Shown here piece by piece: positions 53,005-58,916 of a stretch of DNA of 64,000 nt (position 1 is the stretch's first letter; every line of letters begins with the position of its first letter). Below the pieces are notes generated by a model, which was not told where the DNA came from, did not search any database, and saw only the letters and a list, made by a program, of their open reading frames with translations. Source of the stretch: Cryomorphaceae bacterium (GTDB lineage Bacteria > Bacteroidota > Bacteroidia > Flavobacteriales_D > Sanyastnellaceae); contig WGNM01000001.1 in the NCBI GenBank assembly GCA_016124575.1, positions 62,001-126,000 of the forward strand, read 5' to 3'. A program made the translations under genes and the position numbers.

Positions 53005-53012
53005 TAAGTTTG
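53005..53012 (+). promoter_or_regulatory. -7 element before the LpxH-like gene
   Basis: TAAGTTTG is a full TAnnTTTG match, 15 nt before the ATG at 53028. It includes the TTG at 53010 that could otherwise be read as an earlier start. Confidence 0.5.
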
Positions 53013-53027
53013 ACAAACTTCGACGGT

Positions 53028-53825
53028 ATGAAAAGGCAGGTGGACATCCTTGTACTATCAGACATTCATCTTGGGACATTTGGTTGTAAGGCACGCGAGC
53101 TTAGTCGCTACCTCAGCAGTGTTGACCCAGAGATGATTATTTTGAATGGCGACATCTTCGACATTTGGAACTTCAAGAAAAGCTACTTTCCAGACACACA
53201 CATGCGTGTTGTTAAGCAGATCATACGTTTTTCGGAGCGGATTCCGGTGTATTACATCACAGGCAATCACGATGAAGCGCTGCGGAAATATGCACGTTTT
53301 TCAATCGGCAACCTGCACCTTGTGAATCACCTTGAATTGGAGATCAACAATGAGAAATACTGGTTCTTTCACGGAGACATATTCGACGCCAGCATGCATT
53401 ACGCCAAATGGCTTGCAAAGCTCGGAGGATGGGGTTATGACTCATTGATCGCCACCAACCACTTTGTAAACAAAATCCTCGACTTTCTCGGACAACCTAA
53501 GATGTCGTTCTCAAAACGCATAAAAAACAGCGTTAAGAAAGCCGTAAAATACATTGGTGATTTTGAGCAAACCGCTGCAGAGATCGCGATTGAAAACAAC
53601 TTTGACTACGTAGTTTGCGGACACATTCACTCGCCACAACTGCGTGAAATTAAGTGCGGTCAGAAAGAAGTGAAGTACATGAACTCAGGCGACTGGATAG
53701 AAAACTTAACATCGCTAGAACTTCGTAATGGGAACTGGAAACTCTTCACCTACAACTCTGAAGAGTTTGCTGAACAAGAGATTATAGACCGTTGGTCGAC
53801 ATTTTTGAAACGGGTACCTGCCTAA
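53028..53825 (+). CDS. UDP-2,3-diacylglucosamine pyrophosphatase-like metallophosphoesterase (LpxH-like)
   Basis: A 265-residue calcineurin-like enzyme with all metal motifs: VLSDIHLG, LNGDIFDIWN, TGNHDE, WFFHGDIFDA and VCGHIHSPQ. This set, with the FFHGD motif and length of about 265, fits the LpxH-like group that makes lipid X in lipid A synthesis in Bacteroidota. A broader role in another cytoplasmic phosphoester hydrolysis cannot be ruled out. The start is the ATG at 53028; the TTG upstream lies inside the promoter element. It precedes the repeat array at 53841 but has no such array of its own. Confidence 0.78.
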   Translation: MKRQVDILVLSDIHLGTFGCKARELSRYLSSVDPEMIILNGDIFDIWNFKKSYFPDTHMRVVKQIIRFSERIPVYYITGNHDEALRKYARFSIGNLHLVNHLELEINNEKYWFFHGDIFDASMHYAKWLAKLGGWGYDSLIATNHFVNKILDFLGQPKMSFSKRIKNSVKKAVKYIGDFEQTAAEIAIENNFDYVVCGHIHSPQLREIKCGQKEVKYMNSGDWIENLTSLELRNGNWKLFTYNSEEFAEQEIIDRWSTFLKRVPA

Positions 53826-53840
53826 AACATAGCAGATTTA

Positions 53841-53910
53841 TTAACCTCAAGTTAGCTTTCAACACATCCCGTTAATCGTTCTTTAAACGACAGGTAACAT
53901 TGACCTAACA
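53841..53910 (+). repeat. 11-bp periodic TTAACA-like direct repeats (candidate regulator array 1)
   Basis: Four hexamers are spaced at exactly 11 bp: TTAATC (53872), TTAAAC (53883), GTAACA (53894) and CTAACA (53905). Two more, TTAACC (53841) and TTAGCT (53852), also lie 11 bp apart but are 2 bp out of phase with the block. The arrangement is that of a winged-helix (OmpR/PhoB-type) dimer array on one face of the helix. The last unit ends 20 nt before the -7-like element at 53931. Confidence 0.65.
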
Positions 53911-53930: not shown

Positions 53931-53938
53931 GAATTTTG
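53931..53938 (+). promoter_or_regulatory. -7-like element GAATTTTG before the beta-helix gene
   Basis: GAATTTTG followed by CACC differs from TAnnTTTG only at the first base. The same GAnnTTTGCACC occurs at 55724 before the TonB receptor. It lies 31 nt before the ATG at 53970. Confidence 0.45.
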
Positions 53939-53969
53939 CACCATTAATTCTTACGCAAACTTTTTAAAG

Positions 53970-55625
53970 ATGAACAAAATTTTACGCTTCGGTGCGCTTG
54001 CTTTGGCAATTGCATCTTTCAGTGCTGTAAATGCAGCCGACATTATTGTTTCAGACGACGGGTCAGGAACGGGAACAACAACATGGACGAGTGATAACGT
54101 GTACTTCCTTGACGGATTTGTGTTCGTAAACTCAGGTCAAGCGCTTACCATTCAGGCAGGGACGGTGATTAAAGGAATGCCAGGAACTGGTGCTGTTGCA
54201 TCGGCATTGGTTATAGCGCGTGGCGGACAGCTTTTTGCTCAAGGAACTGCAGCAGCTCCTATCATTTTCACAGCTGAGAGTGACCCATTGGATGGCTCAT
54301 TGCCATTTGACTCACGTGGATTGTGGGGTGGTTTGATCGTTTTAGGAAACGCTCAATTGAACTCAACTCCAGGAGAAACTCAGATTGAAGGAATTCCGGA
54401 TACAGAACCACGCGGATTGTACGGTGGTACTAGCAATGGTGATAACAGCGGAACACTTACATACATTTCAATTCGCCACGGTGGTACAGACATCGGTGCT
54501 GGGAACGAGATAAACGGTCTTACCTTGGGCGGTGTTGGTTCTGCTACTATTATTGATTATGTTGAAGTAGTATCGAATGCTGACGACGGCATCGAATTCT
54601 TCGGAGGAGTTGCACAAGTTAAGCACGCAGCCGTTGCTTTTTGTGGAGACGATAGTTTTGACTACGACGAAGGTTTCAAAGGAAAAGGACAGTTTTGGTT
54701 TACCATTCAAGATGCAGCAGGTGGCGAAGGCGATCGTGGCGGAGAGCATGATGGTGGTACAGATCCAGAAGATGGTAACCCATTTGCTACACCTACAATT
54801 TTCAATGCTACCTATGTTGGACGTGGGCTTTCAGCTGGAAACCGCGCATTGACATTCCGTGATAACGCAGGAGGCTCATACAACAACTCTATTTTCACCA
54901 ATTGGGCTCGTGGAATTGATGTTGAGAGACTTGTTAGTGGAGAAGACAGCTATGCACGTTTTATTGCTGGTGATTTGAGCTTCAACAACAACTGTTTTTA
55001 CGACGTTGCTTCTGCGGGAATAGGCGCTACAGCTTCTGACTTGTTCAAAATTGCAATGGGTTCAGGATGGGCATCAACTTCTGACTCAACAGCTGCATTG
55101 ACTTCGAGCAGCGCCGCATTGCAAGCATCTTTTGCAGCTAATGGCAACGAAGTAGCGAATCCGGGAATTGTTATCGAACTAATAGAAGGTTCAAACGGTT
55201 TGATCCCAGTACCTACTAATGATGTAAGTGCATCACCATCATCAGACACCTGGTTTACTGCTGCTGGATACAAAGGTGCTTTTGACCCAAGTGAGGTATG
55301 CACATGGTTGACAGGATGGTCATTCCTTTATCAGCGTGGTTTCCTTGGATGTTTAGAGAGCATTGATGAACTAGCGGTTGAGACTCAATTGAACGTAATG
55401 CCTAACCCAAGCAACGGTACCTTTGAAATATCAATGGACTCAGACTTGACCAACGGTACCATTGAAATCGTAGACCTTACAGGACGAGTTATTTTCTCTA
55501 AGAATATCAACTTCCTTTCTGCTGGCAGCCGCATGCAAGTTGAGCTAGACGCCCCTACAGGCATCTACCTTCTTCAGGTTCGCCAATTGAACAATCTCCG
55601 CACAACACGCATTGTTGTCCGCTGA
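53970..55625 (+). CDS. secreted beta-helix protein with T9SS type A sorting domain
   Basis: A 551-residue exported protein. The signal peptide ends about AVNAA (residue 22). The body is a right-handed beta-helix-like chain with repeated turns such as TIQAGTVIKG, GLIVLGNAQLN and GTLTYISIRHGG, and an acidic region rich in Gly and Asp (GGEGDRGGEHDGGTDPEDGN). The C-terminal domain (LNVMPNPSNGTFEISM, ending TRIVVR) is the type A sorting signal. No enzyme motif was recognised. The gene shares a regulatory array with the TonB receptor downstream, so it probably captures or processes the ligand of that receptor. A terminator follows, so the two genes are separate transcription units with matching promoters. 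Confidence 0.8.
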   Translation: MNKILRFGALALAIASFSAVNAADIIVSDDGSGTGTTTWTSDNVYFLDGFVFVNSGQALTIQAGTVIKGMPGTGAVASALVIARGGQLFAQGTAAAPIIFTAESDPLDGSLPFDSRGLWGGLIVLGNAQLNSTPGETQIEGIPDTEPRGLYGGTSNGDNSGTLTYISIRHGGTDIGAGNEINGLTLGGVGSATIIDYVEVVSNADDGIEFFGGVAQVKHAAVAFCGDDSFDYDEGFKGKGQFWFTIQDAAGGEGDRGGEHDGGTDPEDGNPFATPTIFNATYVGRGLSAGNRALTFRDNAGGSYNNSIFTNWARGIDVERLVSGEDSYARFIAGDLSFNNNCFYDVASAGIGATASDLFKIAMGSGWASTSDSTAALTSSSAALQASFAANGNEVANPGIVIELIEGSNGLIPVPTNDVSASPSSDTWFTAAGYKGAFDPSEVCTWLTGWSFLYQRGFLGCLESIDELAVETQLNVMPNPSNGTFEISMDSDLTNGTIEIVDLTGRVIFSKNINFLSAGSRMQVELDAPTGIYLLQVRQLNNLRTTRIVVR

Positions 55626-55650
55626 GAATCATAGTAATTCTTTGAATCTG

Positions 55651-55684
55651 CAGGGCGTTCTCATCGGAGGGCGCCCTGTTTTTA
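55651..55684 (+). terminator. intrinsic terminator after the beta-helix gene
   Basis: CAGGGCG (55651-55657) pairs with CGCCCTG (55672-55678) across 14 nt, followed by TTTTT. It separates this gene from the receptor that carries the matching array. Confidence 0.8.
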
Positions 55685-55686
55685 TG

Positions 55687-55714
55687 TTAGCTTTCCCTTA
55701 ACACACACCTAACA
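55687..55714 (+). repeat. 11-bp periodic TTAACA-like direct repeats (candidate regulator array 2)
   Basis: TTAGCT (55687), TTAACA (55698) and CTAACA (55709) are exactly 11 bp apart, separated by 5-nt spacers. The last unit ends 9 nt before the GACCTTTG element. The last hexamer is identical to that of the array at 53905, and TTAGCT also occurs at 53852. Confidence 0.65.
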
Positions 55715-55723
55715 TTACCATTC

Positions 55724-55731
55724 GACCTTTG
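55724..55731 (+). promoter_or_regulatory. -7-like element GACCTTTG before the TonB receptor
   Basis: GACCTTTG followed by CACC matches the element at 53931 in its unusual first base and in the following bases. It lies 26 nt before the ATG at 55758. Confidence 0.45.
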
Positions 55732-55757
55732 CACCCGATTCAAGGATTATTATTTAC

Positions 55758-58700
55758 ATGAGACAGATTCTCGCTTTAGCTGTATTCGCACTCATTAGTG
55801 CGACGGCTTTTTCACAAGGAATAATTCGCGGTAAGGTTACCGACGGTATTACTGGTGAAGCCATGATTGGCGCTAACGTGCTTATAGAAGGCACTTCAAA
55901 AGGGGCCATGGCCGATTTGGACGGTAACTTCAGTTTAGAAGGACTTTCAGCAGGCACCTACAATGTTGTATGCAGCTTTATTAGCTATGAGAAAGTTTTG
56001 GTAACAGGAGTTGTTGTCAATAACGGCAAAGTAACCATCATCAACATCGACCTTAAGCCAGTAACTTTTGTGATTGAAGACGGAGCGGAGATAGTTGTAA
56101 AAGCTGATCGCGCCAAAGACAACTACATGGAGAATGTGAAGAAGAAAGATGCAGCCGTGATGGACTACATTTCTTCTCAACAGATCAAGAAAACAGGAGA
56201 TTCAGATGCTGGAAGCGCCCTTAAACGTGTAACTGGTGTTTCTACCGTAGGAAATTATGTTTTTGTCCGTGGACTTTCAGACCGCTACATCAAAACCACA
56301 TTGAACGGCGCTGAAATTCCAAGTTTAGATCCGAAGCGCAACTCTGTGCAGATGGATCTATTCCCTACCAACCTCATCGACAACCTTGTTGTGATGAAAA
56401 CAGCCAATGCAGATTTACCAGCCGACTACAGCGGAGCGTATATCAACGTCATCACCAAAGATTTCCCTGAAGAATTCATGTTTAACTACAGCGGTTCTTT
56501 TGGGTACAACACGAACGCTACTTTCAACAACGACTTCTTATCGACGACACAAAGCAGCACCGATTGGATGGGTTTTGACAACGGCATGAGAGACATCCCT
56601 TCAGCTGTTTCATCCGCCAACGGCGTCCCACAGCAAGACTTCTCAAACTATTACGACGCATTGGTTTATGCCGGTTATGAGGACGACCTAACAAATTTGG
56701 GTATCACCTCAGCATCAGACATTGGCACTGGTGCCGGTCAGACATCAATTGGAAGCATTGTCAATCAGATTGATGGCATTACTTCTGTATCTCAAGTGAA
56801 CAACGAGTTATTGCCGGCTGTGCGTGAAGCAAACAACCAGGAGCTTTCAAACATGACGAAATCTTTCGCCAATAACTGGACCCCGGTGAAACGAGCACCA
56901 ATCTTCGACCTTTCACAATCTATCAGCTTTGGAAATCAGACCAAACTTTTCGGCAAGCCACTCGGATACCTATTTGGTTTTCAATACAAGCGCACCAACC
57001 GCTTTTACAACGACGGTGTAACAGGACGTTACAAACTAACTGGAACAGAAGAAGAAGTAACATCATTGAACACCGAGCGTTTGTTGTCGGACACTCAGGG
57101 AACCGAGTCTGTATACACCTCGGCGCTCATCAACTTCAGCTATAAGTTAAGCGACAATAACAAAATCGGTATTGCCTACATGCCGAATATTAGTGGTGTG
57201 AACAACAGCCGCTACCAAGACGGTATTAACCCAAGTGATGAAGTTGGATTGGGTCAAGAGCAGCGCATGCAGCGTTACCTTGAGCGTAACATGAGCGTTT
57301 ATCAGCTGCGTGGAGAGCACTTTTTACCATCATTCTTCAAAGCTAAGGTAGATTGGTTGGGGTCATATACCCGTGGCCGACAAGAGACACCAGATTTGCG
57401 TGTGTTTATAAACAGCTACCGCGATAAAGATCCACAGACCTTTTACTTCGACGCTGAAGGGAACAACGTTACAGACGAAGCCTTGAACATCCTCGCTGAG
57501 GGCGAGAACTTGAACGACTATTTCCCAGGATACAGCACACAATTGGAGACAAATCCTGGTGTTGAGTATAACGTGTTCGACAACCTTTATCCATCGCCTA
57601 CGCGCTACTACCGCAAAATGATTGACAATACCCTCGATTTGAAATTGAACATCGAGTTTCCTTTTGAGAACAAAACAGGACTGCAGAACAAAGTTAGGTT
57701 TGGTGGTTCATACGTAGCAAAAACGCGTGATTACACAGAGCAACGTTACAGTTTTATTGCTAACAACGTTGACTACAATGGCGTTCCTGACGAATATTTC
57801 GCTGCTGAGAACATGAATGTCGTTCCAGGTTCTGGAACAGGGTACATCTATTTACGTGATGACACAGAGATTCAGAACAGCTATTCTGCGTACCAGAACG
57901 TTCTAGGGGCTTATGGAATGTTGGATATAAATGCCACAAGCAAGCTTCGCATTAATACAGGAGTGCGTTTAGAGACTACAGACATGTTATTGGAATCAGA
58001 CAAGTTAAAAGACACCGATCTTGACGCAGCTTCTGCTGATGAATTCCGCGGTAGTTTGAACTTGGTAGACGTACTTCCTTCATTAAACATGACCTACTTA
58101 CTCCGTCAATACGATCTTCAGACAACGAATTTACGTTTTGCTGCGAGCCGTTCAGTTGCTCGTCCGATGTTCCGTGAGAAAGCCCCTTATTCAGTTTTTG
58201 ACTTCGAAGTGCAGGAGCAACAAACAGGTAACACCGATTTGGATCGCACCTTGATTTCGAATTTGGACCTCCGATTGGAGCACTATTCACGTCCGGGTGA
58301 GATACTATCAGCTAGCTTCTTTTACAAAGATTTCACCAACCCTATTGAGCAAGTTATCCTTTCTACTGCTTCGAACGTTGAGATCACTTGGGTAAACGTT
58401 GAGCAAGCGCAGGTTTGGGGTGCTGAATTTGAAGTCCGCAAATCACTTAGCTTTTTAGGTGAGAATTTCTCTCCTTTTGGTTTTGGGTTCAACGTTACTT
58501 TGGTTAAATCTGCCACGACCATTTCAGCTGATGAGTTGGAGTTGATAAGAGCGACAGACCCTGATCATGCTGACACACGTCCGATGTATGGACAGTCGCC
58601 ATACGTTATCAACAGCATTTTGACTTACGACAACGATTCACTCGGATTGAATGGCGCATTGAGCTTTAACATACAAGGACCACAATTGGTATTGGTTACC

Positions 58701-58916
58701 AAAGGAGGAACACCGGATGTATATGACCAGCCGCGCGGCAATCTTGACTTCACGGTTAGCAAGCGTTTGGGTGACCGATTTAGCTTAGGATTTAAAGCCA
58801 ACAACTTACTGAATCCAGTGTACAGACAAACATATGTATTCAAAGGAACAGAGTACGATTTCCAAAGCATGACTTGGGGAAGAACCTTCTCTTTAAGTTT
58901 CGGATACCGCATTTGA
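55758..58916 (+). CDS. TonB-dependent outer membrane receptor
   Basis: A 1052-residue receptor. The signal peptide ends near ATAFSQG. A CarboxypepD_reg-like domain (IIRGKVTDGITGEAMIGANV) is followed by a plug domain (ALKRVTGVSTVGNYVFVRGL, then LNGAEIPSLDPKRNSVQMD) and a large beta-barrel. The last strand is TFSLSFGYRI, an aromatic/hydrophobic end recognised by the BAM complex. No SusD lipoprotein is adjacent, so it is not a SusCD glycan transporter; the upstream partner is the beta-helix protein under a matching promoter. The substrate is unknown. Phosphate-ester or organophosphate uptake is one testable idea, based only on the promoter architecture. Confidence 0.85.
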   Translation: MRQILALAVFALISATAFSQGIIRGKVTDGITGEAMIGANVLIEGTSKGAMADLDGNFSLEGLSAGTYNVVCSFISYEKVLVTGVVVNNGKVTIINIDLKPVTFVIEDGAEIVVKADRAKDNYMENVKKKDAAVMDYISSQQIKKTGDSDAGSALKRVTGVSTVGNYVFVRGLSDRYIKTTLNGAEIPSLDPKRNSVQMDLFPTNLIDNLVVMKTANADLPADYSGAYINVITKDFPEEFMFNYSGSFGYNTNATFNNDFLSTTQSSTDWMGFDNGMRDIPSAVSSANGVPQQDFSNYYDALVYAGYEDDLTNLGITSASDIGTGAGQTSIGSIVNQIDGITSVSQVNNELLPAVREANNQELSNMTKSFANNWTPVKRAPIFDLSQSISFGNQTKLFGKPLGYLFGFQYKRTNRFYNDGVTGRYKLTGTEEEVTSLNTERLLSDTQGTESVYTSALINFSYKLSDNNKIGIAYMPNISGVNNSRYQDGINPSDEVGLGQEQRMQRYLERNMSVYQLRGEHFLPSFFKAKVDWLGSYTRGRQETPDLRVFINSYRDKDPQTFYFDAEGNNVTDEALNILAEGENLNDYFPGYSTQLETNPGVEYNVFDNLYPSPTRYYRKMIDNTLDLKLNIEFPFENKTGLQNKVRFGGSYVAKTRDYTEQRYSFIANNVDYNGVPDEYFAAENMNVVPGSGTGYIYLRDDTEIQNSYSAYQNVLGAYGMLDINATSKLRINTGVRLETTDMLLESDKLKDTDLDAASADEFRGSLNLVDVLPSLNMTYLLRQYDLQTTNLRFAASRSVARPMFREKAPYSVFDFEVQEQQTGNTDLDRTLISNLDLRLEHYSRPGEILSASFFYKDFTNPIEQVILSTASNVEITWVNVEQAQVWGAEFEVRKSLSFLGENFSPFGFGFNVTLVKSATTISADELELIRATDPDHADTRPMYGQSPYVINSILTYDNDSLGLNGALSFNIQGPQLVLVTKGGTPDVYDQPRGNLDFTVSKRLGDRFSLGFKANNLLNPVYRQTYVFKGTEYDFQSMTWGRTFSLSFGYRI

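Follow-up and report, generated by a model that had tools for sequence, protein, structure and literature searches.

What are the 11-bp repeats that precede a TonB-dependent receptor gene in this stretch of DNA, and which protein would read them? Judged from the sequence, the arrays are very probably (about 85%) the Bacteroidota form of the Pho box, that is, predicted targets of a PhoB-type regulator that would activate transcription upon phosphate starvation.

Repeat arrays and promoter cores

The window, as the whole 64-kb stretch is called here, carries on its forward strand the gene of a T9SS-sorted, β-strand-rich secreted protein (sec, 53970–55625), followed on the same strand by the TonB-dependent receptor gene (tbd, 55758–58916). 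In the 132-bp gap between the two lies a forward-strand array of the form TTAGCT-N5-TTAACA-N5-CTAACA (55687–55714), a candidate Pho box for the receptor gene, in which the units TTAGCT (55687–55692), TTAACA (55698–55703) and CTAACA (55709–55714) form the direct repeats of 11-bp period that a Pho box should display. The last unit is separated by 9 nt (55715–55723) from GACCTTTGCACC (55724–55735), the first part of which is the predicted promoter core GACCTTTG (55724–55731, forward strand). The upstream promoter, that of sec, has an array in the same 11-bp steps and on the same strand (53872–53910), with the units GTAACA (53894–53899) and CTAACA (53905–53910) preceded in register by the weaker TTAAAC (53883) and TTAATC (53872). 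Here 20 nt lie between the last unit and GAATTTTGCACC (53931–53942), with the predicted forward-strand core GAATTTTG at 53931–53938. The three units, the gaps of 9 and 20 nt and their difference of one period, as given in the first-pass annotation, are all exact on re-reading. The features that it took as the signature of a shared core fared less well, as orthologous promoters carry TAATTTTG, TAGTTTTG or TAGCTTTG in place of the sequence with the "unusual G", and the CACC following the core varies among them (CATC, CAGC). Relative to the Bacteroidota −7 element TAnnTTTG, both cores in the window have a G in place of a T that is frequent in the orthologous promoters.

Within the window, the pattern TARC-N7-TAAC-N7-TAAC occurs once, at the receptor array, against 0.01 occurrences expected by chance, and a two-unit array with a core at gap 9 and zero mismatches likewise occurs once. 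Two-unit arrays alone are unremarkable (4 in the window versus 1.4 expected), and the weight is therefore carried by the third unit, the core and the conservation. Across the genome, three perfect TAAC units in an array gave zero matches, and the strict TTAACA-N5-TTAACA is found at two sites, not above a control pattern.

A terminator-like hairpin followed by a T run is located after sec on the forward strand (55650–55683, z −4.2), and since it is strong, tbd plausibly has a promoter of its own. By eye, terminator-like hairpins are also seen in the sec-tbd gaps of most orthologues, including gaps without a second array. The AlphaFold model of the sec product is confident (pLDDT 84) and abundant in β-strands; its long Foldseek matches are all weak, to tailspikes and pectate lyases, while the C-terminal domain clearly matches T9SS sorting domains. 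Some relatives have tandem copies of the sec domain within one long open frame of up to approximately 2,484 residues (G038:C6:97459–103983, G070:C156 and G042:C2:602687–607000). Upstream of the sec-tbd pair, the window encodes an LpxH-like metallophosphoesterase (53010–53825), which is found in the same place with 72–80% identity at three related loci (L049–L051). A second cluster in the genome (G000:C43:196371–209343, L152) combines a sec paralogue (44% identity) with T9SS proteins and a receptor-like gene, and has arrays at gaps of 19 and 31 before two genes.

Conservation of the spacing rule

Homologues of sec were gathered from 131 of 150 related genomes, plus 34 named loci. In the extracted upstream regions, the distance from each TTTG near the start codon to every TAAC unit was taken blind to phase, and these distances pile up at 9, 20, 31, 42 and 53 nt. 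Upstream regions were then dereplicated for four families, namely sec (the T9SS protein), tbd (the receptor), phoB and Na/Pi-PhoU (a transporter). Of the 87 TAAC units in them, 65 share one of the eleven phases, with 9+11n nt to the NANNTTTG core that follows, a number reached in none of 20,000 random-phase trials. The rule is followed by 25 of 30 units in sec, 16 of 19 in tbd, 16 of 21 in phoB and 8 of 17 in Na/Pi-PhoU, the last being the weakest family (matched in 278 of 20,000 trials). The spacing between TAAC units equals exactly 11 in 49 cases, with every other value far lower. A fixed phase relative to the promoter core, a property sought in Pho boxes, is thus present. In 157 kb of DNA from elsewhere in the genome, a plain count gave a flat background (18 of 157 in phase), whereas a control set taken from the tested genes' neighbourhoods leans to the same phase (14 of 34), which counts against the Pho-box reading. 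The neighbourhood control may contain further regulon members; it was not taken as the null, and the plain background count was used instead.

Both the array and the core at the receptor gene are kept across four genera in which the flanks have diverged. The receptor has its own array in some genera only; elsewhere a short gap without an array separates it from the preceding gene, and this absence in many genera also speaks against the Pho-box reading. In the intergenic DNA of 13 same-order genomes with linked sec and phoB, 16 of 30 units are in phase, and spacings of 11 and 22 bp appear again. When nine relatives were scanned blind for a pair of units ahead of ANNTTTGC, 18 matches were obtained, 13 of them at a gap of 9, 20 or 31; besides sec and tbd, the matches include two phoB genes and one Na/Pi-PhoU gene, and with sec and tbd set aside 5 of 10 are in phase, compared with about one expected. 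The helical-phase rule of the first-pass annotation, which was to fall if orthologous promoters lacked both the repeats and the spacing, is upheld by promoters that keep both.

A PhoB-like regulator as the likely activator

Seven OmpR-type DNA-binding domains are encoded in the genome. The product of one gene, located on contig C46 (C46:109639–110313) and adjoining a histidine kinase gene, has the top PhoB scores among the seven proteins in both models; as these are below the curated PhoB cut-offs (221 versus 296 bits for TIGR02154 and 208 versus 270 bits for NF053854), the protein is named PhoB-like. The best models for the adjacent kinase are PnpS and PhoR, also below cut-off. The promoter of the regulator gene reads TTAACT TTCGC TTAACC, then 9 nt and TAGCTTTG, and for this gene together with its orthologues 29 of 36 upstream units are in phase in a set that was not dereplicated. 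Pho boxes are expected before phosphate-regulon genes, above all phoB, and arrays are found there. The common activator that had been proposed for both window promoters is supported, since the orthologues keep the array and the spacing and the same rule is found before phoB; the PhoB-like regulator is the most likely candidate for this role. The genome's own Na/Pi-PhoU gene has an array at gap 16, out of phase with any visible core. No PstS was recognisable in the genome, the sole match being sub-threshold and in an OxyR-like protein. Both observations speak against the Pho-box reading, as do the sub-cut-off scores of the regulator and the weak phase of the Na/Pi-PhoU family.

In relatives, sec is physically linked to phoB homologues. 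Among the 23 same-order genomes of other families in which both sec and phoB were listed, 22 have a phoB homologue no more than 5.2 kb from sec, with two qualifying via a second, more distant copy. At one locus (L057) sec and tbd are preceded by phoB and phoR in the same orientation, at another (L070) phoBR, sec-tbd and an Na/Pi-PhoU gene all lie within 13 kb, and at a third (L081) a phoB homologue is divergent from sec. By eye, a membrane gene between phoBR and sec at L057 resembles a phosphate permease gene, but no Pfam or NCBIfam model matched it.

In the proposed mechanism, phosphate scarcity would engage the C46 response regulator, a PhoB-type member of the OmpR family, which would bind head-to-tail on the 11-bp TTAACA units along one face of the DNA and assist RNA polymerase at the NANNTTTG core 9+11n nt downstream, thus presumably activating transcription and not repressing it.

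Alternative explanations

In the OmpR family, head-to-tail repeats of 10–11 bp are common; together with the sub-cut-off scores of the C46 protein, they leave room for the arrays being bound by another of the seven OmpR-family regulators. This is nonetheless an unlikely assignment given that arrays are found upstream of the PhoB-like gene, of its orthologues and of Na/Pi-PhoU genes, and that sec is linked to phoB homologues. TTAACA might also represent a form of the −33 promoter element that is read by RNA polymerase, the repeats being incidental. The gap-20 position approximates the expected place of the Bacteroidota −33 element, so a unit there is suitably placed, and viral promoters favour this very gap; however, the nearest unit stands at 9, 20, 31 or 42 nt depending on the promoter, the units recur at 11 bp, and the combination of array and core is rare in the genome, with 28 matches and no excess over 55 control matches, which renders a −33 element very improbable. 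Chance repetition in AT-rich intergenic DNA would readily supply two-unit arrays, expected about once per window, but not an array and core kept across genera despite diverged flanks, nor the same rule before unrelated genes; as the orthologous promoters keep the array, chance is already refuted and its probability is negligible.

Arrays in viral contigs

Array promoters of the same type are also found in viral DNA. A contig of the same genome (C12, L148), whose genes (VapE-like primase, amidase) mark it as a phage, has the array at gap 20 in four promoters, at 988, 2172, 4176 and 7630. Two genes of this phage (179–1006 and 4386–5081) are built of 66-bp tandem units encoding 22 residues, roughly "..VLVNDPDSDVRTAVAQQGYGLD", in 9 and 7 overlapping register copies. 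In a viral collection, a stricter form of the array was found at gap 20 in 24 contigs and at gap 19 or 22 in none, and a looser form in at least 120 contigs at gap 20 versus 6 at gap 19. Each array is followed by an A..TTTG core; a contig often has several of them, and the genes that they precede are diverse and mostly short. Across the 126 viral loci gathered (L202–L225 and L241–L342), the in-phase gap of 31, which was not selected for, was seen 70 times, two or more array promoters are present at 50 loci, and the genes directly downstream of them fall into 93 groups, mostly of short proteins among those listed. No PhoB-like gene was found in the first 25 viral loci, the named phages P12024L and RAP44, terminase relatives of one viral contig, gave no array signal, and none of the named phages matched a 69-bp viral promoter. 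Tentatively, and at somewhat less than even odds, many Bacteroidota phages may have adopted host Pho boxes as standard small-gene promoters with a strict 20-nt spacing, their expression then depending on host PhoB and phosphate; a precedent for phage use of host Pho boxes is known from cyanophages (PMC10976474).

Comparison with known phosphate regulons

Pho boxes are bound by regulators of the PhoB/PhoP type (reviewed in PMC4415409). The arrays resemble them in consisting of head-to-tail 11-bp direct repeats upstream of phosphate genes and of the gene for the regulator itself, and the TTAAC-type unit is shared with the cyanobacterial consensus PyTTAAPyPyT/A (PMC10976474); the differences lie in the Bacteroidota NANNTTTG-type core and in the nearest recognisable unit being at 9, 20, 31 or 42 nt. 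Within Bacteroidota, PhoB of Bacteroides fragilis binds the pstC promoter (PMC3547664), and PhoP of Riemerella anatipestifer, also of the Flavobacteriales, binds its own promoter and has a motif with the core TTTAACA (PMC9603813), a likeness to our case in motif and in the autoregulation predicted here. That study reports 583 peaks and likens its motif to that of ArcA; unlike here, neither an 11-bp array nor a spacing rule was found in the available part of its text.

In Flavobacterium johnsoniae, the phoBR cluster includes the TonB transporter Fjoh_0545 and the surface lipoprotein FII, Fjoh_0546; upon phosphate depletion both show strong induction, with listed log2 changes of roughly 8 and 10, respectively (PMC8115612). 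The window likewise pairs a TonB receptor with a secreted β-helix-like protein, but the latter has a T9SS sorting domain instead of being a lipoprotein, and the pair is not beside phoBR as it is in F. johnsoniae. FI–FIII have been reported as relatives of ElpS (PMC8115612), the phosphate-starvation surface protein of Caulobacter crescentus (cc0170), whose gene stands beside the TonB receptor gene cc0171 (PMC2996285). The arrangement of a surface protein gene adjoining a receptor gene is the same as here, whereas ElpS is released by the type II pathway and the window protein has a T9SS sorting domain. The likeness of sec to the FI/FII/FIII-ElpS proteins is seen in gene neighbourhood and in a weak β-helix fold match, and both window proteins may have a role in phosphate starvation; by analogy with F. 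johnsoniae (PMC8115612), the array promoters may depend on phosphate.

For the phosphate regulon of aquatic Bacteroidota, the literature offered a binding motif for one species, and a spacing rule was not found. The present analysis offers a concrete operator model, comprising the unit, its period and the 9+11n spacing to the core, for a large group of aquatic Bacteroidota, which can be used for sequence-based searches for regulon members. The model would tie a widespread pair of surface protein and TonB receptor to phosphate, and it brings to light promoters of this type in numerous viral contigs, where, if the proposed adoption of Pho boxes is true, phage gene expression would follow the phosphate status of the host via PhoB.
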